Of a stretch of DNA of 33,615 nucleotides, positions 14,818 to 32,322 are shown in pieces. Location: NCBI GenBank assembly GCA_017441705.1, contig JAFRWU010000048.1, positions 1 to 33,615 on the forward strand, written 5' to 3'. The stretch's first letter is position 1. Every line of letters starts with the position of its first letter. The stretch comes from Clostridia bacterium (lineage in GTDB: Bacteria; Bacillota; Clostridia; Oscillospirales; QAMX01). Both the position numbers and the translations under genes were made by a program. The notes beneath the pieces are model-generated. The model saw only the letters and a list, made by a program, of their open reading frames with translations. It searched no databases and was not told where the DNA came from.

Positions 14818-14832
14818 ACCGCTTTTTTGTGC

Positions 14833-14861
14833 TTGACAAGAGGCGCCGCGCGTGCTATACT
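14833..14861 (+). promoter_or_regulatory. Promoter of the iron-sulfur operon
   Basis: TTGACA (14833-14838), exactly 17 bases, TATACT (14856-14861): a near-perfect sigma-A promoter, with the dyad operator just downstream. Confidence 0.88.
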
Positions 14862-14868
14862 TAATCCA

Positions 14869-14885
14869 CCTACTGAAATGGTAGG
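14869..14885 (+). promoter_or_regulatory. Putative IscR/Rrf2 operator over transcription start
   Basis: CCTAC (14869-14873), a 7-base spacer, GTAGG (14881-14885): a perfect dyad 7 bases past the -10 box, where a bound repressor would block initiation. The operon's last gene encodes an Rrf2-family protein with IscR-like cysteines, so autoregulation is the natural reading (inference). The dyad resembles the CCTAC/GTAGG style of site I associate with clostridial IscR-like regulators, from memory. Confidence 0.6.
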
Positions 14886-14964
14886 AATAAAATGCAGACG
14901 CCGCCCGCAGACGGGCGGCCCCCGCGACCGGGATCCGTCGGAATGCAAAGGAAGGAGAATCCCG

Positions 14965-16149
14965 ATGATCTATCTGGACAACGCAGCCACCACAAAAATG
15001 AGCAAAACCGCCGTCGAGGCCATGCTCCCGTATCTGGAAAACTGGTACGGCAATCCCTCGAGTCTCTATTCCTTCGGTCAGAAGTCGAAGGAAGCGCTGG
15101 AATCGGCGAGGGAGAGGATCGCGGCCTGTCTCGGCGCCGATCCGAAGGAGATCACCTTTACCTCCGGAGGCAGCGAAGCGGACAACCAGGCGATCCTTTC
15201 CGCCGCGATCCTGGGAGAAAGGAAAGGGAAAAAACACATCGTCTCCACCGCGTTCGAACATCACGCGGTGCTTCATACACTGGAAAAGCTGAAAAGGGAA
15301 GGATACGAGATCACGCTTCTGGACGTGCATCCTTCGGGCGTCGTCACGCCGGAGGAGGTGGCGGCGGCCATCCGCCCCGACACCTGTCTGGTGACGATCA
15401 TGTTTGCCAACAACGAGATCGGGACGATCCAGCCCATCCGGGAAATCGGCGCGATCTGCCGGGAAAAGGGCGTCCTGTTCCATACGGACGCCGTACAGGC
15501 GGTGGGACACGTCCCGGTGAACGTGAAGGAAGACAATATCGATATGCTTTCGCTTTCCGCCCACAAGTTCCACGGTCCGAAGGGGACCGGCGTCCTTTAC
15601 GCCAGACGCGGCGTCCGGCTTTTCAGTCTGATCGAAGGCGGCGCGCAGGAACGCGGCAAGCGCGCCGGCACCGAAAATCTGGCGGCGATCGCGGGAATGG
15701 CGGCGGCGCTGGAGGAAGCCTGCGGCGCTCTGGAGGAAAACCGCCGGAGGATCCTGCCGCTGCGCGAACGGCTGATCGACGGGCTTTCGGAGATCCCGCA
15801 CGGCGCGCTCAACGGCGACAGGGAAAGAAGGCTTCCCGGCAACGTGAACTTCTGCTTTGAAGGGATCGAGGGCGAATCGCTGCTTCTGCTTCTGGACGAC
15901 AGAGGCGTCTGCGCGTCCTCCGGCTCGGCCTGCACGTCGGGCTCGCTGGATCCCAGTCACGTGCTCCTCGCCATCGGCAGGCCGCACGACGTGGCGCACG
16001 GTTCCCTCCGTCTGACTCTCTCGGAGGGAAATACCGCGGAGGAGATCGAGGAGACGATCGGCGCGGTGAAGGAGGTCGTTTCCTATCTCCGGAGCATGTC
16101 TCCGGTGTGGCGCGATCTGGAAGAGGGCAAAAAAGAGCATCTGCTCTGA
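14965..16149 (+). CDS. iscS: Cysteine desulfurase (NifS/IscS type)
   Basis: PLP enzyme converting cysteine to alanine and an enzyme persulfide, the sulfur donor for Fe-S clusters and thio-tRNA; 394 residues, cytoplasmic. It opens with [20 protein letters not shown] at 67-74 and EHH at 98-100 contact PLP; HTDAVQA is at 173-179; [10 protein letters not shown] carries the PLP lysine Lys201; SGSACTSG carries the catalytic Cys323. The ATG at 14965 is chosen, with GAAGGAG 8 bases upstream, rather than a longer in-frame start near 14827 that would lie upstream of the promoter. First gene of an operon with IscU, MnmA and an Rrf2 regulator. Confidence 0.95.
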
Positions 16150-16217
16150 ATCGAAATCGATTTGCGGCGCGGATCCCTCGGGAAAACGGCCGCATATCTC
16201 GGGAAAGGACGGTTCTC

Positions 16218-16649
16218 ATGGCACTTTACAGCGAAAAGGTAATGGATCATTTCCGCAACCCCCGCAACGTCGGCGTTCTGGAAAACCCCGACGGCGTGGG
16301 AGAAGTGGGCAACGCCAAATGCGGCGACATCATGAAAATCTATCTCAAGATCGAAAACGACGTCATCGCCGACGTGAAATTCGAGACTTTCGGGTGCGGC
16401 AGCGCCATCGCCTCAAGCTCCATGGCCACCGAGCTGATCAAGGGGCAGCCGGTGTCCGAGGCGCTGAAGCTCACCAACAAGGCCGTGGCGGAAGCGCTGG
16501 ACGGTCTTCCGGCCCACAAACTCCACTGCTCGGTCCTGGCGGAGGAGGCCATCAAAGCGGCGCTGAAGGATTATTACGACAAAAACGGCATCGCCTACGA
16601 CCCGGCGGACTTCCCCGATACAGAGGACTGCGAACACTGCGCGCTCTGA
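16218..16649 (+). CDS. iscU: Iron-sulfur cluster scaffold IscU
   Basis: Scaffold on which [2Fe-2S]/[4Fe-4S] clusters are assembled from IscS sulfur; 143 residues. The conserved ligand set is complete: Cys35 and Asp37 in AKCGD, Cys60 in FGCGSA, and Cys104 in HKLHCSV. An extra C-terminal tail, DTEDCEHCAL, adds a CxxC pair absent from the enterobacterial protein. The ATG at 16218 has AAAGGAC upstream; an earlier in-frame codon lies inside iscS. It follows iscS by 68 bases, and mnmA begins 4 bases after its stop. Confidence 0.93.
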   Translation: MALYSEKVMDHFRNPRNVGVLENPDGVGEVGNAKCGDIMKIYLKIENDVIADVKFETFGCGSAIASSSMATELIKGQPVSEALKLTNKAVAEALDGLPAHKLHCSVLAEEAIKAALKDYYDKNGIAYDPADFPDTEDCEHCAL

Positions 16650-16653
16650 CGGT

Positions 16654-17763
16654 ATGAAAAAAGCATTGATTGCCATGAGCGGCGGCGTAGACAGCAGCGT
16701 CGCCGCCCTCCTTGTCAAGGAATCCGGGATCGAGGCGGTGGGATGCACCATGCGCCTTTACGATGCGGAAGAGATCGCCGGCCTTCCGGAGCCCGGCGCG
16801 CGGACCTGCTGTTCCCTGGAGGATACCGAGGACGCGGGCGCGGTGGCGCGGCGACTGGGGATCCCTTATCACGTATTCAATTTCAAGTCGGAATTCCGGG
16901 AAAAGGTGATGGTGCCCTTTGCCCGCGCCTATCTTTCCGGGAGCACGCCGAATCCCTGCATCGAATGCAACCGGCATCTGAAATTTGCGAAGCTTCTGGA
17001 ACGGGCGGAGATCCTGGGATGCGGCTGTGTCGTCACCGGGCATTATGCCCGGATCGATGAAAAGGACGGCAGGATGCGCCTGCTGAAGGCGAAGGAGCCG
17101 GAAAAGGATCAGAGCTACGTGCTCTATCAGATGGATCAGTACGCCCTGCGGCATACGCTTTTCCCGCTCGGAGAGCTTTCCAAGGAGGAGACGCGCCGGA
17201 TCGCCGAAGAGCACGGCTTCCTGAACGCGCGCAAGCCGGACAGCCAGGATATCTGTTTCGTCCCGGACGGCGATTACGCCCGCGTGGTGGAGGCCCTTTC
17301 GGGCGTCCGGTCGGAGCCGGGGGATTTCGTCCTTGCCGACGGTACGAAGCTCGGGCGGCACAAGGGCGTGATCCATTATACCGTAGGCCAGCGGCGCGGA
17401 CTCGGGATCGCGGGCCCTGCGCCTTACTACGTGATCCGGATCGATCCCGCGGAGAACCGGGTGGTACTCGGCTTCCGGGAGGAGCTGTATTCCTCCGAGG
17501 CGCGGCTTGCCGGGGTCAACTGGATCGCGGGAAACGCGCCGGGCGGCCCGTGCCGCTGCGGCGTGCGCATCCGTTATCATCACCCGGAGGAGCCCGCCAC
17601 GGTATTCCCGGGGGAGGGGGACACGGCGCGCGTCGTGTTCGACGAGCCGCAGAGAGCGGTGACGCCCGGCCAGGCGGCGGTATTCTACGAGGGAGAAGAA
17701 GTCCTCGGAGGCGGCGTGATCCTGCCTCCCGGCGGCGAAGGAACAGGAGGAGACCGGATATGA
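16654..17763 (+). CDS. mnmA: tRNA-specific 2-thiouridylase MnmA
   Basis: Adds sulfur to U34 of tRNA-Lys/Glu/Gln using ATP and persulfide from the desulfurase; 369 residues, cytoplasmic. The PP-loop SGGVDSS lies at 9-15; Cys102 in NPCIECN and Cys201 in DICFVPDG match the two catalytic cysteines of the family; the C-terminal beta domain follows (HYTVGQRRGLGI, then strands). Placement directly after iscS and iscU ties it to their sulfur supply. It starts 4 bases after the iscU stop and ends with an ATGA overlap with the Rrf2 gene, indicating translational coupling. Confidence 0.95.
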   Translation: MKKALIAMSGGVDSSVAALLVKESGIEAVGCTMRLYDAEEIAGLPEPGARTCCSLEDTEDAGAVARRLGIPYHVFNFKSEFREKVMVPFARAYLSGSTPNPCIECNRHLKFAKLLERAEILGCGCVVTGHYARIDEKDGRMRLLKAKEPEKDQSYVLYQMDQYALRHTLFPLGELSKEETRRIAEEHGFLNARKPDSQDICFVPDGDYARVVEALSGVRSEPGDFVLADGTKLGRHKGVIHYTVGQRRGLGIAGPAPYYVIRIDPAENRVVLGFREELYSSEARLAGVNWIAGNAPGGPCRCGVRIRYHHPEEPATVFPGEGDTARVVFDEPQRAVTPGQAAVFYEGEEVLGGGVILPPGGEGTGGDRI

Positions 17764-18161
17764 TGGTATCCACCCGGGGCAAATACGCTCTGCAATTCAT
17801 GATCGATCTGGCGGAAAACGGAAAAGACGGCTGCGTTCCCCTGAAGGAGATCGCCGAAAGGCAGCAGATCTCGGTGAAGTATCTGGAACGGATCCTGCCG
17901 GTCCTGGTGAAAAGCGATCTGATCCGTGGCATCCAGGGCAAGGAGGGCGGCTATAGGCTGACCCGCGAACCCGCCGCGTACAGAGTGGGAGAGATCCTAC
18001 GCCTGACCGAAGGGGACCTTGCGCCCGTCAGCTGTCTCGAACAGGGCGCGCCGCCCTGCGCCAAAACGGCGGAATGCCGCACAAGGCCTCTCTGGAACGG
18101 ACTGAACGCCGTGATCAACGAGTATCTGGACAAGGTCACGATCGCCGATCTGATGCAGTAA
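17760..18161 (+). CDS. iscR: Rrf2-family regulator, IscR-like
   Basis: Transcriptional regulator of 133 residues, probably sensing Fe-S cluster status. The N-terminus STRGKYALQFMIDLA and helix-turn-helix EIAERQQISVKYLERIL (about 30-46) followed by the wing GKEGGYRL are diagnostic of Rrf2. Cys92, Cys100 and Cys106 (C-x7-C-x5-C) correspond in place to the three cluster-ligating cysteines of IscR (C-x5-C-x5-C in E. coli). The symbol is by similarity; a CymR-type role is less likely because CymR lacks these cysteines. AGGAGG lies 9 bases before the first of two Met codons; the start overlaps the mnmA stop. It is last in the operon, not first as usual. Confidence 0.88.
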   Translation: MMVSTRGKYALQFMIDLAENGKDGCVPLKEIAERQQISVKYLERILPVLVKSDLIRGIQGKEGGYRLTREPAAYRVGEILRLTEGDLAPVSCLEQGAPPCAKTAECRTRPLWNGLNAVINEYLDKVTIADLMQ

Positions 18162-18236: not shown

Positions 18237-18842
18237 TCAATCCTCCAGCTCGATGCTTCCGCCCGACTCCAGAGTCTCGCCGTTCAAAAGCAGGAGCTTT
18301 TCGGCAAGCAGCCGGCAGAATCCGCCGGTCAGAGCCGAAGCGAAGATCAGCTCCTCCGTGTTCTCTGCGGTCAGCTCGGTCTTTTCCTCGTGATCCAGAA
18401 CGGACGCGGCGAAGAGCTTGACCTGCTCGCAGAAATACCGGGCGATGATGCGGTGCCATCTCCGGTAGGCGTCGTAGTAGGCGCGGAGCTCGTCTGCGGA
18501 GAGCTCCGCCGGGATCATGGTCTGAAGGGTCGCGATGCTCAGACTTTGCTTCAGGGTGCAGATGATGATCAGATAGACGATATGGATGCGGTAATACTTC
18601 TTTTTGACCGGCTCCGGCATGACCCTTTTGCGGACATAGTTGTTGATGGTGGCGGGCGTGATGAACTGCTCCTCCTTCAATTCGGGGGGCAGATAATCCA
18701 GGTATTCCTTCAAAAGCGCCGTCACCTGTTCCATATACAGCCCGAAATCGGGGATATCCTCCCATGCGGGCAGCTTGTAATGATCCATATACCGTTCCCA
18801 GCGCCGCAGTTTTCCCGCAACCAGTTCCTTGTCATAGCCCAT
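18237..18842 (-). CDS. DUF1836 protein, possible MerR-like DNA-binding regulator
   Basis: 201-residue protein of the DUF1836 family. Typical motifs are LPAWEDIPDFGLYMEQV and TPATINNYVRKR, then PVKKKYYRIHIVYLIIICTL, which read like a winged-helix MerR-type fold followed by a helical hydrophobic core, so it may be a transcription factor (inference; the family is uncharacterised). The start at 18842 is chosen because GGAGGAGG lies upstream and the promoter -10 box at 18874-18879 excludes the earlier start codons. It is divergent from the FakA-C / GT8 / acyltransferase operon, about 25 bases between the two -35 boxes, so it may control that operon. Confidence 0.78.
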   Translation of the reverse strand: MGYDKELVAGKLRRWERYMDHYKLPAWEDIPDFGLYMEQVTALLKEYLDYLPPELKEEQFITPATINNYVRKRVMPEPVKKKYYRIHIVYLIIICTLKQSLSIATLQTMIPAELSADELRAYYDAYRRWHRIIARYFCEQVKLFAASVLDHEEKTELTAENTEELIFASALTGGFCRLLAEKLLLLNGETLESGGSIELED

Positions 18843-18873
18843 ATCGTCCGCCTCCTCCGGCATTCTTTTTCTC

Positions 18874-18902
18874 ATTGTAGCAAAAATGATCCGGAAAATC
18901 AA
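18874..18902 (-). promoter_or_regulatory. Promoter of DUF1836 gene
   Basis: Minus strand TTGATT (18902-18897), 17-base spacer, TACAAT (18879-18874). Confidence 0.7.
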
Positions 18903-18923
18903 GAAGAAATTTCCGGGAAAGAC

Positions 18924-18952
18924 TTGACATAATACAAAAAATCTGATATTCT
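18924..18952 (+). promoter_or_regulatory. Promoter of envelope-lipid operon
   Basis: TTGACA (18924-18929), 17-base spacer, TATTCT (18947-18952), in an AT-rich patch. Confidence 0.8.
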
Positions 18953-19025
18953 AATCGCAAAGACAAGATGATAAATATCTGCCGGCGATCTGATCGCCGG
19001 ATCGGGTCGAGAACGGGAGGCAGCC

Positions 19026-19283
19026 ATGGAGAAATCCGGATATCGTTACGATACGCAGCTTCTGATCGAAGGGCATGATCTGGACGAGGACGCCGTCGGC
19101 GCGTATTTCCGCGCACATTTTGAAGGCGACTGTCTTCTGGCGGTGGGGGACGAGGACCTGATCAAGATCCATTTTCATACCGACGAGCCGTGGAAGGTAT
19201 TGGAATACTGCGCTTCCCTCGGCGAAATCTTCGATATCGTCGTGGAGGATATGGATCGTCAGGCAAGAGGGCTGAAAGGCTGA
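19026..19283 (+). CDS. Free-standing FakA C-terminal-like domain protein
   Basis: 85-residue protein resembling only the C-terminal domain of the fatty acid kinase FakA (DhaK-like, older name 'kinase to dihydroxyacetone kinase'). The motif GDCLLAVGDEDLIKIHFHTDEPWKVLEYCASLGEI shows the family signature of V-G-D-D then K-I-H-H-T-D-P-x-V-L-E-Y. It lacks the DhaL-type ATP-binding domain, so it cannot be a kinase alone; it could bind a FakB-like fatty-acid carrier or act as a regulatory subunit (inference). GGGAGG precedes the ATG by 5 bases. First of a four-gene run with GT8 and two acyltransferases. Confidence 0.75.
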   Translation: MEKSGYRYDTQLLIEGHDLDEDAVGAYFRAHFEGDCLLAVGDEDLIKIHFHTDEPWKVLEYCASLGEIFDIVVEDMDRQARGLKG

Positions 19284-19310
19284 AAATCACACGGGAAAGA
19301 GGGCGACGGC

Positions 19311-20252
19311 ATGAAAGGCAGAGAAACGATCCCGGTTTTCTTTTCGACGGACGACCGTTACGCGCCGTATCTCGCGGTGGCGATCGCGTCGCTTGCGAAA
19401 AACGCCTCAAAGGAGTTTGATTACAGACTTCACGTACTGAACTGCGGGCTTGCCAAAAGGAACCGGAACCGGCTCCTCGCGCTTGCGGGCGGGAATATCG
19501 CTCTGGAATTTGCGGACGTGAGGGATTATCTGATCCGGATGGGGGGAAGGCTCCATCTGCGCGATTATTACACCGCGGCGACCTATTACCGCTTTTTCAT
19601 CCCCGATCTTTTCCCGGCGTATGAAAAGGGGATCTATCTGGACTGCGACGTGGCGATCAACGGCGATATCGCGGAGCTTTACGGGACCGATCTCGGCGAA
19701 AATCTCCTCGGCGCGGTCACCGAAGAGGTCATGACCGACATCCCGACCTACGGCCGCTACGCGCGGACGGTTCTGGGCCTTCGCCCGTCGGAGTATTTCA
19801 ACGCCGGCGTGCTCCTGATGAATCTGGGGAAAATGCGCAGGACCGGTCTTCTGGACCGCTTCTCCGCGCTTTTGGACCGGCGCCGTTTCCCCGTGGCGCA
19901 GGACCAGGACTATCTGAATCTCCTGGCCGCGGGCAGCGTCACCTATCTGGATGCGGGATGGAACCGGACGCCCTTCCCGTATGCGCCTTCGGAGGAGCCG
20001 AAGCTTGCGCACTACAAGATGAATTTCAAGCCGTGGCATTACCGCGGCGTTTCCTATGAAGACTGCTTCTGGCGTTATGCGGAGGCGACGCCCTATTACC
20101 GGGAGCTTCTGGCGGAAAGGGAAGCCTACTCCGCCTTCGACGCGGCGCGGGACGATCTGCAGAACGCAAGGCTCCTCCGTCTCGCCGAGGAGGAGACCGA
20201 AAAGGCCGAAACCCTCGCGGCGGAGGAATACCGCCCGGCGGTCTACGCGTAA
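19311..20252 (+). CDS. Glycosyltransferase family 8
   Basis: 313-residue cytoplasmic or membrane-associated glycosyltransferase using a UDP-sugar. It starts IPVFFSTDDRYAPYL (a GT8 N-terminus), has TAATYYRFFIPDLFP near 88 and the metal-binding DxD as Asp111-Cys-Asp113 in YLDCDVAING, then FNAGVLLMNL and the late HYKMNFKPWHY that contacts the donor phosphate. The C-terminus is a charged Ala/Glu-rich helix. Acceptor unknown: cell-wall polymer or glycolipid are possible. It starts 27 bases after the FakA-C-like gene and 12 bases separate it from the next gene, so it is operonic. Confidence 0.87.
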   Translation: MKGRETIPVFFSTDDRYAPYLAVAIASLAKNASKEFDYRLHVLNCGLAKRNRNRLLALAGGNIALEFADVRDYLIRMGGRLHLRDYYTAATYYRFFIPDLFPAYEKGIYLDCDVAINGDIAELYGTDLGENLLGAVTEEVMTDIPTYGRYARTVLGLRPSEYFNAGVLLMNLGKMRRTGLLDRFSALLDRRRFPVAQDQDYLNLLAAGSVTYLDAGWNRTPFPYAPSEEPKLAHYKMNFKPWHYRGVSYEDCFWRYAEATPYYRELLAEREAYSAFDAARDDLQNARLLRLAEEETEKAETLAAEEYRPAVYA

Positions 20253-20264
20253 AGGAGAAACCTC

Positions 20265-21101
20265 ATGGAAAAATCAAAGGACCGTCTGGCGATCCTCGAT
20301 AAGATCGCGGAATACGAAAAGCGCGGCTGGTTCGACAAGGACGTGGAAAACGATCCGCCGACAAGACCTCTCAGGCCGGGAGAATGCGATTATCTGGCGG
20401 AAAAGCCCTCCACGCGGATCCTCACCGGGATCTCGAACCGTATCGCCAAGCGCCATTTCGACAGGAAGATCCGGGAAGGCGAGCTGATCATCAAGCGGAT
20501 CCGCGGGATCGACAATTATCTCGCGATCCGGGACCGCGGCGCGATGATCACCTGCAATCATTTCAATCCCTACGACAATTACGCGATCTTCAAGGCCATC
20601 GAGCCGTATCTCGGCAAACGCCGTCTCTATAAAGTAATCCGGGAGGGGAACTACACTTCCTTCCCCGGGCTTTACGGCGTTTTTTTCCGGCACTGCAACA
20701 CGCTGCCTCTGGCGGCTTCGGTCCCCGTGATGAAGGAATTCCTGAACGCCGTTTCGGTGCTTTTGAAGCGCGGGGAGAAGATCCTGATCTATCCGGAGCA
20801 GGGCATGTGGTGGAATTACCGGAAGCCGCGGCCTCTGAAGCCGGGCGCTTTCCGCTTCGCGGCCTCCGCCGGCGCTCCGGTCCTTCCGGTGTTCATCACC
20901 ATGGAGGATTCCGACAAAACCGGCGCCGACGGCTTCCCGATCCAGGCGTACACTCTGCATTTTCTGCCAGCGATCTGGCCGGACGGGGACCTCCCGGTCC
21001 GCCGGGCGGCGGAGAAAATGGCAGCGGAGAATTACCGGATGTGGAAAGAGGTCTATGAAAGGACCTACGGTATGCCGCTCACCTACGGCGGGGAGAACTG
21101 A
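20265..21101 (+). CDS. PlsC-type acyltransferase 1
   Basis: 278-residue lysophospholipid or glycerol-phosphate acyltransferase-like protein. Motif I is NHFNPYDN with the HX4D pair His99 and Asp104; motif III is IYPEQGMWW near residue 172, where Gly follows Glu-Gln. There is no obvious transmembrane helix, so it is probably a peripheral membrane enzyme. The acyl acceptor cannot be inferred: phospholipid or a glycolipid built by the adjacent GT8. AGGAG is 7 bases before the ATG. It is followed after 2 bases by the CrtO-like gene. Confidence 0.8.
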   Translation: MEKSKDRLAILDKIAEYEKRGWFDKDVENDPPTRPLRPGECDYLAEKPSTRILTGISNRIAKRHFDRKIREGELIIKRIRGIDNYLAIRDRGAMITCNHFNPYDNYAIFKAIEPYLGKRRLYKVIREGNYTSFPGLYGVFFRHCNTLPLAASVPVMKEFLNAVSVLLKRGEKILIYPEQGMWWNYRKPRPLKPGAFRFAASAGAPVLPVFITMEDSDKTGADGFPIQAYTLHFLPAIWPDGDLPVRRAAEKMAAENYRMWKEVYERTYGMPLTYGGEN

Positions 21102-21103
21102 AG

Positions 21104-21673
21104 ATGCTGTTTTACGGGATTGTGATCCTCGGATCCGATATTCTGATCCTGCTTCTGAACTGGCTCCTCCGGGGCGGCGGACTTCCCGAACTCGGCAAAG
21201 CCGCGCTTGCCGTCTTCGGGGGGACGGTCCTGGTGATCGCGATAGACGGCCTCTTCGCTTTTTTGATCCGGAGACTGCCGGAAAAGTGGTTCGCGCCCGG
21301 CGCGCGCCTTTTCCGCGTGGGGAAAAAGGAGCGGGATCTCCTCGGGAAGCTCGGCGTCAAGCGATGGAAGCATCTGGTGCCGGAGCTCGGCTTTCTCTCC
21401 GGATTCCCGAAGGACAGGATCGGCGGCACCCGGGACGGAGCGCATATCGCGAGATTCCTTCTGGAGTCGAATTACGGGGTGGCGATCCATCTGGAAAACG
21501 CGCTGTGCGGCCTGTTCCTTCCGGCCTTTCCCTTCCTGCGGCGCTTTGCCGTCTGGTTCCCGATCTTTTTCGTGAACCTCTTTCTGAGCTTTCTCCCGGC
21601 GATGATCCTGCGGTACAACACGCCGCCGCTCCGGCGTCTCTACAAGAGAAACGGCGGGAAGGTCGACGAATAA
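21104..21673 (+). CDS. Integral membrane protein, CrtO-like acyltransferase
   Basis: 189-residue membrane protein with hydrophobic segments at about 2-22, 32-54 and 144-168. The soluble loop has WKHLVPELGFLSGFPKDRI, which resembles the KW-x-LPE-G motif of the glycosyl-4,4'-diaponeurosporenoate acyltransferase (CrtO) family. No carotenoid genes are in the window, so the label refers to the fold and not the staphyloxanthin pathway. It is cotranscribed with the PlsC-like gene upstream (2 bases apart) and closes the operon at a terminator whose hairpin overlaps the convergent GNAT end. Confidence 0.62.
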   Translation: MLFYGIVILGSDILILLLNWLLRGGGLPELGKAALAVFGGTVLVIAIDGLFAFLIRRLPEKWFAPGARLFRVGKKERDLLGKLGVKRWKHLVPELGFLSGFPKDRIGGTRDGAHIARFLLESNYGVAIHLENALCGLFLPAFPFLRRFAVWFPIFFVNLFLSFLPAMILRYNTPPLRRLYKRNGGKVDE

Positions 21674-21709
21674 AAAAAGCTTCGCGCGTTCATTCGCGCG
21701 AGGCTTTTT
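21674..21709. terminator. Terminator overlapping convergent GNAT end
   Basis: Hairpin AAAAAGCTTCGCGCG (21674-21688) with complementary arm about 21693-21709 and a T-run after. On the minus strand the same bases encode the last residues and stop of the GNAT gene. Confidence 0.8.
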
Positions 21710-22329: not shown

Positions 22330-23589
22330 TCATTCCGCGGTTTCGGAGGGCGGGCCGTTTTTGCCCGGATGCAGGTGAGCGTAAAGCTCCTCCGTGGCCA
22401 GGGCGAATTTGGTCACGGCGAAATCGCGGCCCTTCGGGTAGATATAGAAGGTGTCGTTCAGAGTGTTCAGATCCACGCAGTCCCCGTATTTCCCGAGATA
22501 TTCGTATTCGATGTGGCAGGAATAGAGGGTTTCGGCGGGAAATCTGACGGTAAACGGTTCTCCGCGGTCGTTTCCGGTCAGGGTAAAGCCGGTCATGTCG
22601 TGGGTCAGGGTCCCGTCTCCCATATCGATATATCCCTTCGCGTTCGGCAGGGCGTCGATCCGCACCGGACCGGAGAAACGGTAGGTCCCTTCCTCCACCT
22701 CCCGGCGCACGTTCCCGCGTTCCCATTCGTACCAGTCGGGGACGTGGGGAAACTCGGTTTCACCCTCCGCGGCGGAAAGGACGCCGTATTCGTCCATCCG
22801 CCAACGATTGCCGCAGCTTTCGCAGAAAAGCTCGGTCCCGGCGGAGTTCATGCGGTATTCGGTCCCGCAGTGCGGGCACTGATAGAGGACCTTGTGGAGT
22901 CCCTCGGCCCGTTTGGGATAGTCGATCCGCTTGCCGTTTTCCTTCTGCCAGGCCCAGTCGTCGTACCGGAACGCCTTTTCGATGGCGGCGGTGACCTCCT
23001 CGTGGGTGTGCTCCTCCAGCTCCCCGGCGGTGAACAGGCAGGTCATTTCGGCCTCGGTGCCCTTCACGTGATGATCGGGCAGGTTCCAGAAGGGAGAATT
23101 CACGTGGTGCCCGTGGCAGATCAGGGTCACCACCGGGATCTTCAGAAGCTTGCACAGCTTTCCGAGCGAAGCGGGCAGCACCGCCGTCGTGCCGCAGAGC
23201 GAGTAGCGCGCCTCGGGATAGATCACCGGGATGTCGCCGCGCTTCGCCACCCGCATCAGTTGACGGATCAGGACGGTGTCGCGGGTGAATTTCCTCTTGC
23301 AGATGCATCCGATCAGCCGCAGGAGCCACTCGCGCTTCAAAAAACCGTCGATAGCCACCACGAAATTGGCGCAGTGAGGGAAGGTGGCCTTCAGCGCCAC
23401 CGAAAAATCCATGAAGGCGTTGTGGTTGCAAAGCAGAAGATAGGGCGGCTTGATCCCCTCCATGCGAATCTTCGTCAGTTTGTTGTGATGCGAAACGAGG
23501 GTGGGAACGACCAGAAGGCGCATCAGAAGGCGCAGATGCTGCCGCATGGGCGGCTTTTTCATATCGAAGCGTTTGACGTCTGAAAGCAT
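22330..23589 (-). CDS. PlsC-type acyltransferase 2 fused to zinc ribbon
   Basis: 419-residue fusion. Residues about 1-230 form a PlsC-type acyltransferase: NHNAFMD with His56 and Asp61 (HX4D), and IYPEARYS near 124. Residues 239-260 hold CPHC and CESC, a four-Cys zinc ribbon, followed by about 160 residues of strand-rich sequence of unknown fold. The ATG at 23589 is preferred, with GGGAG upstream, over a TTG 18 bases earlier. The promoter at 23630-23658 is near consensus. The zinc ribbon is unexpected for a lipid acyltransferase and may be for protein or RNA contact (inference). Confidence 0.8.
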   Translation of the reverse strand: MLSDVKRFDMKKPPMRQHLRLLMRLLVVPTLVSHHNKLTKIRMEGIKPPYLLLCNHNAFMDFSVALKATFPHCANFVVAIDGFLKREWLLRLIGCICKRKFTRDTVLIRQLMRVAKRGDIPVIYPEARYSLCGTTAVLPASLGKLCKLLKIPVVTLICHGHHVNSPFWNLPDHHVKGTEAEMTCLFTAGELEEHTHEEVTAAIEKAFRYDDWAWQKENGKRIDYPKRAEGLHKVLYQCPHCGTEYRMNSAGTELFCESCGNRWRMDEYGVLSAAEGETEFPHVPDWYEWERGNVRREVEEGTYRFSGPVRIDALPNAKGYIDMGDGTLTHDMTGFTLTGNDRGEPFTVRFPAETLYSCHIEYEYLGKYGDCVDLNTLNDTFYIYPKGRDFAVTKFALATEELYAHLHPGKNGPPSETAE

Positions 23590-23629
23590 GGCTTTTCTCC
23601 CGAGCAAGAATTGTGTGGCTTTTTGTCAT

Positions 23630-30364: not shown

Positions 30365-31183
30365 TCATTCCGCACCGGAGGCGATCTTTTGATCCTCCGG
30401 TATTGTTTGCGTTTCATCCGGGATCTTCCGGTATTCCACGTGCCGGTAGGTGGAAAGAGAGGCGCGTCGCGTCATGGCGTCGCGGCACTGACGGCAGAGG
30501 ATTTCCTGATTCTCCCTGGCGGAGGCGCCTTCACGCCCGAAATACGGCCCGTCGATGAAGAGGACGACGCGCGGGAGACGGAAGAAAAGCCGCCTGCGAT
30601 AAACCGCGGTAAAGGTGAAAACGGGCTTCCCTTCCTCCGCGGGATAGCGGAAGGAGGCGGAGGGAAAGGGACGGATGCCGGTGAAATACGGCCAGATATG
30701 CGCCTCGGGATAAACGGCGATCACGTGTCCCCGCTCTGCGTGGATCCGGATCGCCTCTCGGAAATTCCGCCATCCGGCGGCGCTTGTGGGCAGGGGCACA
30801 GCCCCGAGATCCTCCACCACGCGCCGGAGTCCGGGGATCGAAACACAGTCCGGATTTGCGAGGATATACGCCTTTTTCGGGAAGGCGACGAGAGACGGCG
30901 CATAGGCGTCTCCCGCGGCGCGGGTGTGATTGCCGTAGAGGAAGTACCCGCTTTTCCGGTAGGGACGGAGCTTCTTCCGCCCGACGATCCTTTCGCCGTA
31001 GAGGATCTTCTGCATGAGAAACACCAGAGGCGTTGCGATCAAGTGATAAAAGACGAAGGCGAAGCCCTTCCGGAAGAAAGTCTTCGGGAAATAGGCGTAA
31101 TCCGGCGGAAGCTTTTTTTGCTTGATCTCCCAGGAGGCGAAATCCTCAGCCTCGGCGCCGGTATACGTGATGACCTTTTTCAT
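30365..31183 (-). CDS. PlsC-type acyltransferase 3
   Basis: 272-residue acyltransferase-like protein with a likely membrane segment at about 40-60 (FAFVFYHLIATPLVFLM). Motif I is NHTRAAGD: His86 to Asp92 is H-x5-D, one residue longer than the canonical HX4D. Motif III is YPEAHIWP near 153. The start at 31183 is supported by the ATGA overlap with the upstream glycosyltransferase stop (31182-31180). The pair GT4 / acyltransferase suggests glycolipid assembly (inference). Confidence 0.78.
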   Translation of the reverse strand: MKKVITYTGAEAEDFASWEIKQKKLPPDYAYFPKTFFRKGFAFVFYHLIATPLVFLMQKILYGERIVGRKKLRPYRKSGYFLYGNHTRAAGDAYAPSLVAFPKKAYILANPDCVSIPGLRRVVEDLGAVPLPTSAAGWRNFREAIRIHAERGHVIAVYPEAHIWPYFTGIRPFPSASFRYPAEEGKPVFTFTAVYRRRLFFRLPRVVLFIDGPYFGREGASARENQEILCRQCRDAMTRRASLSTYRHVEYRKIPDETQTIPEDQKIASGAE

Positions 31184-32322
31184 GCACGGAACCTCAGGGC
31201 GGCGGCGTCGGCAAGCATGTCTTCCATCTGTTTCATACAGCTTTTCTGATCGAATCCCTCGCGGACCTTTGCGTATTTGTCCCGGCAGGAAACAAGCTCG
31301 GAGGGATTTTCGATGAAGTATTCGATCTTCCGGCACAGATCCTCCGGATCGCCCGCGCGGAAAAGGGTCCGGTCGTCAACGGCGAAGAAGCGCGTGGCCG
31401 AACGGGGCGAATCGGCGATCACGGCCGGAAGGCCGGAGGCGATGGCCTCCATGCATCCGATGGCTTCGATCTCCACTACGGCGGCGTGCACGTACAGATC
31501 GGCGTTGTGAAGCGTTTCGGCAAGCTCCTCGCGGGCAAAGAAACGGAATGAGGCGTTCACGCCTTCTCTTTTCGCAAGAGATTCCAACTTCTCCTGCATG
31601 GGGCCGCTGCCGGCGAGGATCAGCCGGATCTTCTCCCGGTACCGGGAAAGCCCGATCGCGCGGATCAGGGTCGCCTGGTCCTTTTCCCGGCTGTATCGGC
31701 CAGTGGAAACGATATCGAAGGTCTCGTGCTTGACCTTTTCGCCCTTTTCCTGAAAAAAGATATCGTTGACGCCGTTGGAGATGACGCGGTAAGGCCTTTC
31801 GATGGGGACGTTTTCGGTAAAGACGCGGCGGATGAATTCGGTCGGGTAGTGGATCACGTCGCAGTATTGATAGATGCGCTGATAAAAGACCTTGTAAACC
31901 AGATGATTGGCGATCCGGTCGTTCATCACCGGCCCCAGATGCGCGGTCACGTTCTCCGCCTGACAGTGGAAGCTGGCGGTGACCGGCTTGCCCATTTCCC
32001 GGGCGAAGCGCAGGGCGCATTCGGAAAGCTCGAAGGGGACCTCCAGATGGACGACGTCGGCCATTTCGACCACCTTCTCCAGGACCCCGGGGTCCGCTTT
32101 CGCCAGCGAGACGCCGTTCTTTTCGAAGATCCGGTTGATCAGGAAGCCGAAATCCCGGGTCGGGGTCACGTAATAATCCTCCAGACCGCGGGTGGAATCC
32201 TGCGGTGAAACGACGTAGACCGTGTGCCCCCGTTCCTTCAGATAGCGGATCAGGTTCAGCGCTGCGAGCACGGTGCCGTTGTTTGCTTCGCCCAGGACGT
32301 CGCAGATCATGGCGATTTTCAT
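31180..32322 (-). CDS. Glycosyltransferase family 4
   Basis: 380-residue GT-B glycosyltransferase. N-terminal MKIAMICD and NNGTVLAALNLIRYLKERGH match the acceptor domain of diacylglycerol glucosyltransferase-type GT4 proteins; the C-terminal domain has FDIVSTGRYSREKDQ near 222, LILAGSGPMQEKLE and the sugar-nucleotide motif E-x7-E in EIEAIGCMEAIASG near 308. It probably transfers a sugar from a UDP donor to a lipid or polymer. The ATG at 32322 has GGAGG upstream. No strong promoter of its own is seen; it lies just after the tRNA terminator. Confidence 0.85.
   Translation of the reverse strand: MKIAMICDVLGEANNGTVLAALNLIRYLKERGHTVYVVSPQDSTRGLEDYYVTPTRDFGFLINRIFEKNGVSLAKADPGVLEKVVEMADVVHLEVPFELSECALRFAREMGKPVTASFHCQAENVTAHLGPVMNDRIANHLVYKVFYQRIYQYCDVIHYPTEFIRRVFTENVPIERPYRVISNGVNDIFFQEKGEKVKHETFDIVSTGRYSREKDQATLIRAIGLSRYREKIRLILAGSGPMQEKLESLAKREGVNASFRFFAREELAETLHNADLYVHAAVVEIEAIGCMEAIASGLPAVIADSPRSATRFFAVDDRTLFRAGDPEDLCRKIEYFIENPSELVSCRDKYAKVREGFDQKSCMKQMEDMLADAAALRFRA

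Follow-up and report, generated by a model that had tools for sequence, protein, structure and literature searches.

A DUF1836 gene divergent from a putative glycolipid operon headed by a stand-alone FakA middle domain in a Clostridia bacterium

The fatty-acid kinase FakA and the DUF1836 family are the closest described counterparts of two divergent genes that lie, with three further genes, at positions 18,237 to 21,673 of contig JAFRWU010000048.1 (assembly GCA_017441705.1, Clostridia bacterium, Oscillospirales); the whole stretch of 33,615 nucleotides is referred to below as the window. Published studies describe FakA_L as the dimerisation domain of FakA and report that FakA_N and FakA_L supplied in trans restore activity (PMC9136124), that a Cys-His-His set of residues binds zinc and is required for activity, and that this metal pocket is critical for dimer stability (PMC11617999; PMC9136124). 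In the excerpt of the CREST paper, DUF1836 is linked to haemolysin III (HlyIII) and assigned to the helix-turn-helix clan, with DegV noted as a neighbour of HlyIII (PMC3146951), and for Ligilactobacillus ruminis a table of genes in the literature places DegV beside DUF1836 (PMC12688256). An 83-residue protein of Lentilactobacillus diolivorans (WP_057864359.1), named 'kinase to dihydroxyacetone kinase', was judged to be short and most probably non-functional (PMC5719546).

In the window, a DUF1836 gene is divergent from a row of four genes that encode, in this order, an isolated FakA middle domain, for which the name FakM is coined here, a GT8 glycosyltransferase, a PlsC-type acyltransferase and a CrtO-type acyltransferase. 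All five products match their Pfam families above the cut-off, and the arrangement of the DUF1836, GT8, PlsC-like and CrtO-like genes that an earlier note on this DNA had described is confirmed. The reading proposed here, to which an even chance is given, is that DUF1836 controls a glycolipid operon in which FakM could possibly modulate the fatty-acid kinase.

From the genes found next to it, DUF1836 looks like a regulator of lipid genes. The sample comprises 22 places in relatives and 48 places in 47 of 388 phylum genomes, with Bacillus subtilis among those that have a match, which reduce to 65 different loci (one contig-edge fragment was dropped and one locus was added by hand); 64 of these have a 5' neighbour, the last being cut by a contig edge. 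By Pfam, the 5' neighbours include DegV and HlyIII (11 each), GDSL lipase (7), AMP-binding (2) and FakA-M (2), and all 33 are divergent from DUF1836. DegV adjoins DUF1836 in 15 of the 65 loci, 11 times divergently and four times downstream on the same strand, while other loci taken as background, 1.57 Mb with 1,565 genes by estimate, hold four DegV genes and no HlyIII or GDSL gene. The 3' side is not a clean control, with DegV at 4 of 59 loci and HlyIII and GDSL at one each, which is read as the same association. Because close relatives remain among the 65 loci, which form 46 clusters at 60% identity, binomial tails for the enrichment come out too small. The closest relatives of the window protein (~50–75% identity) are divergent from DegV in three cases and from HlyIII in one, and a fifth near relative ends at a contig edge. 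The neighbourhood survey of DUF1836 with FakA-C and FakB/DegV that the earlier note had proposed thus yields a strong link to DegV/FakB.

The DUF1836 gene occupies 18237..18839 on the minus strand and encodes 200 residues from ATG 18839; by comparison with the congener that shares the cluster (see below), this is probably the start, rather than TTG 18902 of a longer open reading frame on the same strand. The match to PF08876 has 81.1 bits against a cut-off of 27 (E 7.5e-23). The AlphaFold2 (AF2) model, with a predicted local distance difference test score (pLDDT) of 87.2, gave no significant Foldseek match (best E 0.79), and a PDB sequence search returned none at E 1. In a second look with VIA, CueR was matched with Z 8.1 (root-mean-square deviation 2.3, 68 residues aligned, model residues 34–117); 14 rows with Z between 5.8 and 8.1 are MerR-type, most of them over the same residues, and the next row has 5.0, although chance arrangements occur at such Z values. 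Some of these matches, such as GlnR and SCO5550, we take to be MerR-type, the others being so by title. On the model, DUF1836 is predicted to be a MerR-like DNA-binding regulator.

A sigma-70-type promoter-like sequence (TTGACA-17-TATTCT) lies before FakM at 18924..18952 (plus strand), and its first 22 bases, counted from the -35 box, recur unchanged in the congener. A candidate DUF1836 operator, TAATCGCAAAGACAAGATGA, a degenerate copy placed by motif matrices at 18952..18971 (plus strand), overlaps the last bases of the -10 box and the probable transcription start of the FakM operon. With a first matrix, made from the promoters of four relatives, this site ranked first of 67,184 window positions; the rank holds for the 24- and 52-column matrices and for the refined one, and the 19-column matrix puts the site second. 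The earlier-matrix score was reached by 18 of 1000 shuffles of the AT-rich gap for the window, which is modest, and by none of 1000 for the congener, which is strong. The refined pattern, TAGTwTTnAwAACTAkATwA, is palindromic, spans 20 bp and was derived from 49 sites over 63 DUF1836 upstream regions. When each region was scored with itself left out, 47 of the 63 reached at least 9, 40 at least 12 and 33 at least 15. The score of 15 was reached by 3 of 1260 shuffles and 2 of 1260 other segments, and when the whole motif search was rerun on the control sets it was reached on average 0.8 and 1.25 times, and at most 3 and 7 times. The congener operator scores 15.6 and contains a perfect 8-bp inverted repeat. 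Symmetry alone was tried as a criterion and abandoned: only the congener stands out, and the window is matched by 98% of shuffles, so the case for the motif rests on the leave-one-out scores and the control reruns. As a predicted site, the pattern goes with DUF1836 and precedes roughly half of the family members in the phylum-wide sample; none of 95 FakM upstream regions outside the genus reaches 9. DUF1836 also occurs beside PspA in three loci, all divergent and with the pattern at 14.5 or above, and beside DUF436 in five loci, on the same strand and with the pattern in one. Within the FakM leader, 18982-19000 is a perfect 9-bp inverted repeat, CCGGCGATC-t-GATCGCCGG, which the congener does not have at that place.

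FakM (19026..19283, plus strand, 85 residues) was taken in the earlier note for the C-terminal domain of FakA; it is the middle domain instead. Its single Pfam match, PF21645 (FakA-like_M, 3.6e-18), covers residues 6–81, TIGR03599/NF038248 match it at middle-domain positions far below cut-off, and both the N-terminal DhaL-like kinase domain and the C-terminal FakB-binding domain are absent. PF13684 (FakA-like_C) was found in the genome in two FakA proteins, both on other contigs; the idea of FakB binding through a FakA-C protein at this locus falls, because the locus has none. The AF2 model of FakM (pLDDT 90.8) matches FakA of S. suis (7w7h) in Foldseek with TMq 0.77–0.80 and E 4.8e-05, followed by ACT-like folds with weak scores. 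According to the alignments, Asp9 replaces the zinc-binding Cys of the metal site, and His49 and His51 (HxH) are kept. In all 98 stand-alone copies read, Asp stands at the position of zinc-binding Cys240 and the HxH pair is kept, and FakA proteins keep YCTE there (all 13 correctly oriented rows of a set of 20, the other seven having been read from the wrong strand, and 11 of 11 middle domains from FakM-bearing relatives).

FakM relatives are encoded in at least 578 stretches of a GTDB-based collection, not each of which was checked to be stand-alone, and the best 80 (75–89% identity) belong to Lachnospiraceae, Oscillospiraceae, Sharpea, Lentilactobacillus, Murdochiella and others. Their distribution is patchy: 11 of 59 relatives (own genome included), 41 of 295 genomes in the order and 10 of 398 in the phylum, the last count being made by open-frame length and including one copy with a TAG inside (in the FakM-type row L127 the frame is cut by a TAG, and L040 and L072 are without a gene seed). 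A full FakA is present in all 11 FakM-bearing genomes among the 59 relatives. The host has a complete fatty-acid kinase besides FakM, since another contig (C101:4000-11000) carries, in a row, a monogalactosyldiacylglycerol (MGDG)-synthase-type gene (PF06925), FakA with all three domains, DegV/FakB, a gene for a 377-residue protein and PlsX (PF02504); a second DegV gene lies elsewhere in the genome.

Downstream of FakM on the plus strand, the GT8 gene (19311..20252; PF01501, 4.8e-43) keeps the DxD motif, D111 and D113 being invariant in nine aligned sequences, the PlsC-type gene (20265..21101; PF01553, 8e-11) keeps HX4D in the alignment, as NHFNPYD, and the CrtO-type gene (21104..21673; PF18927, 1.6e-14) has 54.7 bits against a cut-off of 27.3. 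With the promoter-like site ahead of FakM and, after CrtO, a terminator-like hairpin (21674..21709, plus strand, 15 pairs and then a T run), it is plausible that the four genes form one operon, the scans for such sites being weak alone (2 promoters found against 1.2 expected, 7 terminators against 4.2).

Of the 295 genomes from the order, 33 contain the PlsC subfamily (E 1e-40); in the phylum sample (E 1e-35) it was found in the own genome alone among 378. A GT8-family gene lies within the cassette at all 33 loci, directly adjacent or fused in 32; at L184 a second acyltransferase gene is placed between the two. In ten of the 33 loci GT8 and PlsC are fused as one protein of ~590–609 residues, as confirmed by Pfam on one of them; a fusion suspected in the congener from a 566-residue open frame turned out to be two genes. 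Many loci have a second GT8/PlsC pair, and seven of the 33 share CrtO with the window. In 11 of the 33 loci the cassette has an HTH_3-type regulator gene nearby, and DegV is beside it in three (L150, L173, L178), at L150 on both sides and together with a MarR gene; at L154 the CrtO homologue adjoins an MGDG-synthase-type gene. By sequence comparison, GT8–PlsC, with CrtO or a second GT8/PlsC pair, is a cassette conserved at the level of the order, and judging from the enzyme families its simplest product would be an acylated glycolipid. In the titles and abstract beginnings surveyed, GT8–PlsC clusters, DegV–glycolipid clusters and stand-alone FakA domains are not described as units.

Two more acyltransferase genes are present on the minus strand of the window. 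One (22330-23607; PF01553, 3.3e-5) has a zinc-ribbon-like stretch whose zinc-ribbon matches are below cut-off, and the other (30365-31336) resembles the second PlsC of the order-level cassette. On the other side of the locus, 14827-18158 (plus strand) holds in a row an aminotransferase class V gene of the cysteine-desulfurase type and NifU_N/IscU-type, tRNA_Me_trans (MnmA-type) and Rrf2 genes.

Under the proposed mechanism, DUF1836 would bind the palindrome as a dimer through a MerR-like DNA-binding part, repress both its own gene and the divergent FakM operon, and be released by a fatty-acid or membrane signal. On the inner face of the membrane, GT8 would then transfer a sugar onto a lipid acceptor, and acylation of the product by PlsC and CrtO would give an acylated glycolipid. 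FakM would most likely be a small partner acting in trans on the fatty-acid kinase, whose activity it would modulate by pairing either with the FakA middle domain or with a second FakM, and in the weakest step it would tie the supply of acyl phosphate to glycolipid output. A role for FakM in fatty-acid use is favoured because FakM occupies the place that DegV has in the loci of the three nearest DUF1836 relatives. The fatty-acid-responsive glycolipid pathway of the earlier note is upheld in part, as was its observation: the regulator gives 'fatty-acid-responsive' indirect support, the GT8–PlsC cassette is conserved, and in the own genome FakA and DegV stand between an MGDG-synthase-type gene and PlsX, while 'glycolipid' is deduced from enzyme families.

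A number of results weigh against this proposal or against the unit of the earlier note. Among 59 related genomes the full set of five genes turned up twice, in the own genome and in the congener G002 (identities of 86, 88, 74, 91 and 76% for DUF1836, FakM, GT8, PlsC and CrtO), and FakM is missing from three other congeners, two of which are only 72–77% complete. At 107 FakM loci outside the genus, of which 52 have a 5-kb flank on both sides, no PlsC, CrtO or DUF1836 gene of these kinds occurs within 5 kb; DegV occurs at two, and one distant GT8 gene is 4.9 kb away. FakM and PlsC co-occur in genomes at the chance level (5 observed against 4.6 expected of 295). The five-gene unit drawn in the earlier note is therefore not conserved as such, and on these comparisons the joining of the other genes with FakM is specific to the genus. 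As to regulation, 31 of the 64 DUF1836 loci have some other 5' neighbour (DUF436 5, PspA 3, peptidase 2, YqeY 2, etc.). The window copy of the operator scores 8.7 when left out, under the lowest threshold of 9, and one half has lost its symmetry; repeated controls reach 18 and 27 regions at a score of at least 9, against 47 of the 63 real ones, so that only the higher thresholds discriminate. Cassette loci without DUF1836, scanned whole, have sites of up to 15.8, and the first matrix gives 13.3 at L295:785, before the MGDG-synthase, FakA and DegV genes, against 13.7 for the window, a site to which the refined matrix gives no support. Finally, the last helix of FakM is short (nine residues modelled) and the zinc Cys is lost, which leaves its pairing with FakA hypothetical.

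The part of FakM in the pathway is an inference, and it is nearly as likely that FakM is a mobile passenger, spread by phages and plasmids, which landed before the GT8 operon in the ancestor of the two species and has no part in the pathway. This account, a serious possibility at somewhat less than an even chance, agrees with the lack of a conserved neighbour (on either side the commonest Pfam family accounts for 3 of 75 neighbours, by crude gene calls) and with a patchy occurrence combined with a mean identity, over 55 pairs from the 11 genomes mentioned, of 73.8% for FakM against 58.8% for the FakA middle domains, although high identity may equally reflect strong constraint. Copies do sit on mobile elements: on Paraclostridium bifermentans plasmids of ~140 kb (L307, L309) FakM, annotated as 'dihydroxyacetone kinase', adjoins a rod-shape MreB-type gene, and in the Faecalimonas phage NatCom_26447 (PV036436.1, 4992-5627) it is followed by a YjbR-type gene (by Pfam) and lies between the major tail and tape-measure genes, with 29% GC against 40% for the stretch. 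Transfer of FakM seems probable from its patchiness and these elements; against the passenger reading, a scan of viral contigs gave 20 pattern matches of which none was confirmed. A search of PHROGs gave no match. The FakM–YjbR pairing suggested by the phage was dropped, as no YjbR homologue occurs in 113 FakM-type loci, and the surroundings of FakM in MT835716.1, a record filed under bacteriophage, look bacterial, with an AMP-binding match by Pfam and, on inspection by eye, dlt-like and ABC transporter genes. What speaks against a mere passenger is that the same place and the same promoter and operator layout are kept in two species, and that FakM fills the FakB/DegV slot of the three nearest DUF1836 relatives.

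The regulatory and biosynthetic parts of the proposal have rivals of their own. The half-sites TAGTA/TACTA resemble FapR sites, and the palindrome could be the site of another lipid regulator such as FapR, with DUF1836 as one of its targets. FapR binds 17-bp inverted repeats within or just after promoters, according to an excerpt of PMC5052256. This is nevertheless unlikely, as the pattern is missing from the 300 bp ahead of each of the host's two DegV genes (-0.6 and -5.9, below 9), reaches 11 at one of four DegV upstream regions in cassette loci (L150), and accompanies non-lipid partners, namely all three PspA genes and one of the five DUF436 genes. It is also conceivable, if doubtful, that GT8–PlsC–CrtO modifies a lipoteichoic or capsular glycan, or an acylated sugar metabolite, rather than making a glycolipid: GT8 enzymes act on many acceptors, and the sole NCBIfam match of the window enzyme is to a lipopolysaccharide galactosyltransferase, far below cut-off. 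A glycolipid is favoured over these products by the two lipid-type acyltransferase families, by DegV at three of the 33 cassette loci and by the CrtO homologue beside an MGDG-synthase-type gene.

A wider version of the DUF1836-controlled glycolipid operon may be drawn, although it is unlikely to hold in full: DUF1836 proteins would be phylum-wide MerR-like regulators of fatty-acid and membrane genes (FakB/DegV, HlyIII, lipases, acyl ligases) with a common 20-bp operator, and FakM a horizontally mobile single-domain subunit, derived from the fatty-acid kinase and with an Asp-His-His metal site, that would tune the kinase of any host in which it is present, also when a phage brings it. The DUF1836 family, uncharacterised so far, gains a predicted DNA site, predicted partners and a possible tie to the use of exogenous fatty acids, which bears on resistance to inhibitors of fatty-acid synthesis. 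A small and widespread Bacillota protein that goes under a misleading kinase name is a detached and altered FakA domain.

Compared with FakA (YloV; S. aureus, S. suis 7w7h), FakM has the same predicted middle-domain fold and the HxH pair, but it is without the kinase and FakB-binding domains and has Asp for Cys240. FabT of Bacillota shares with the window a palindromic operator at lipid-gene promoters and, by layout, autoregulation. The same holds for FapR in the excerpt available (PMC5052256), whereas DUF1836 is another protein family. The L. diolivorans protein WP_057864359.1 agrees with one FakM member (L103, 83 residues) in species and length, by which alone, and not by accession, the two were matched; the excerpt of PMC5719546 reads it as a dihydroxyacetone kinase, but its domain is the middle one of FakA. 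CrtO of staphyloxanthin synthesis belongs to the same Pfam family as the window protein, the reaction named for it being glycosyl acylation, and in contrast to UgtP-type glycolipid synthases the sugar enzyme of the window is GT8, not of the MGDG-synthase type. The HlyIII link of the CREST paper is reproduced here (11 of 64 loci, divergent), and the present analysis extends the partners to DegV, GDSL and ligase genes and contributes a site pattern and a MerR-like model.

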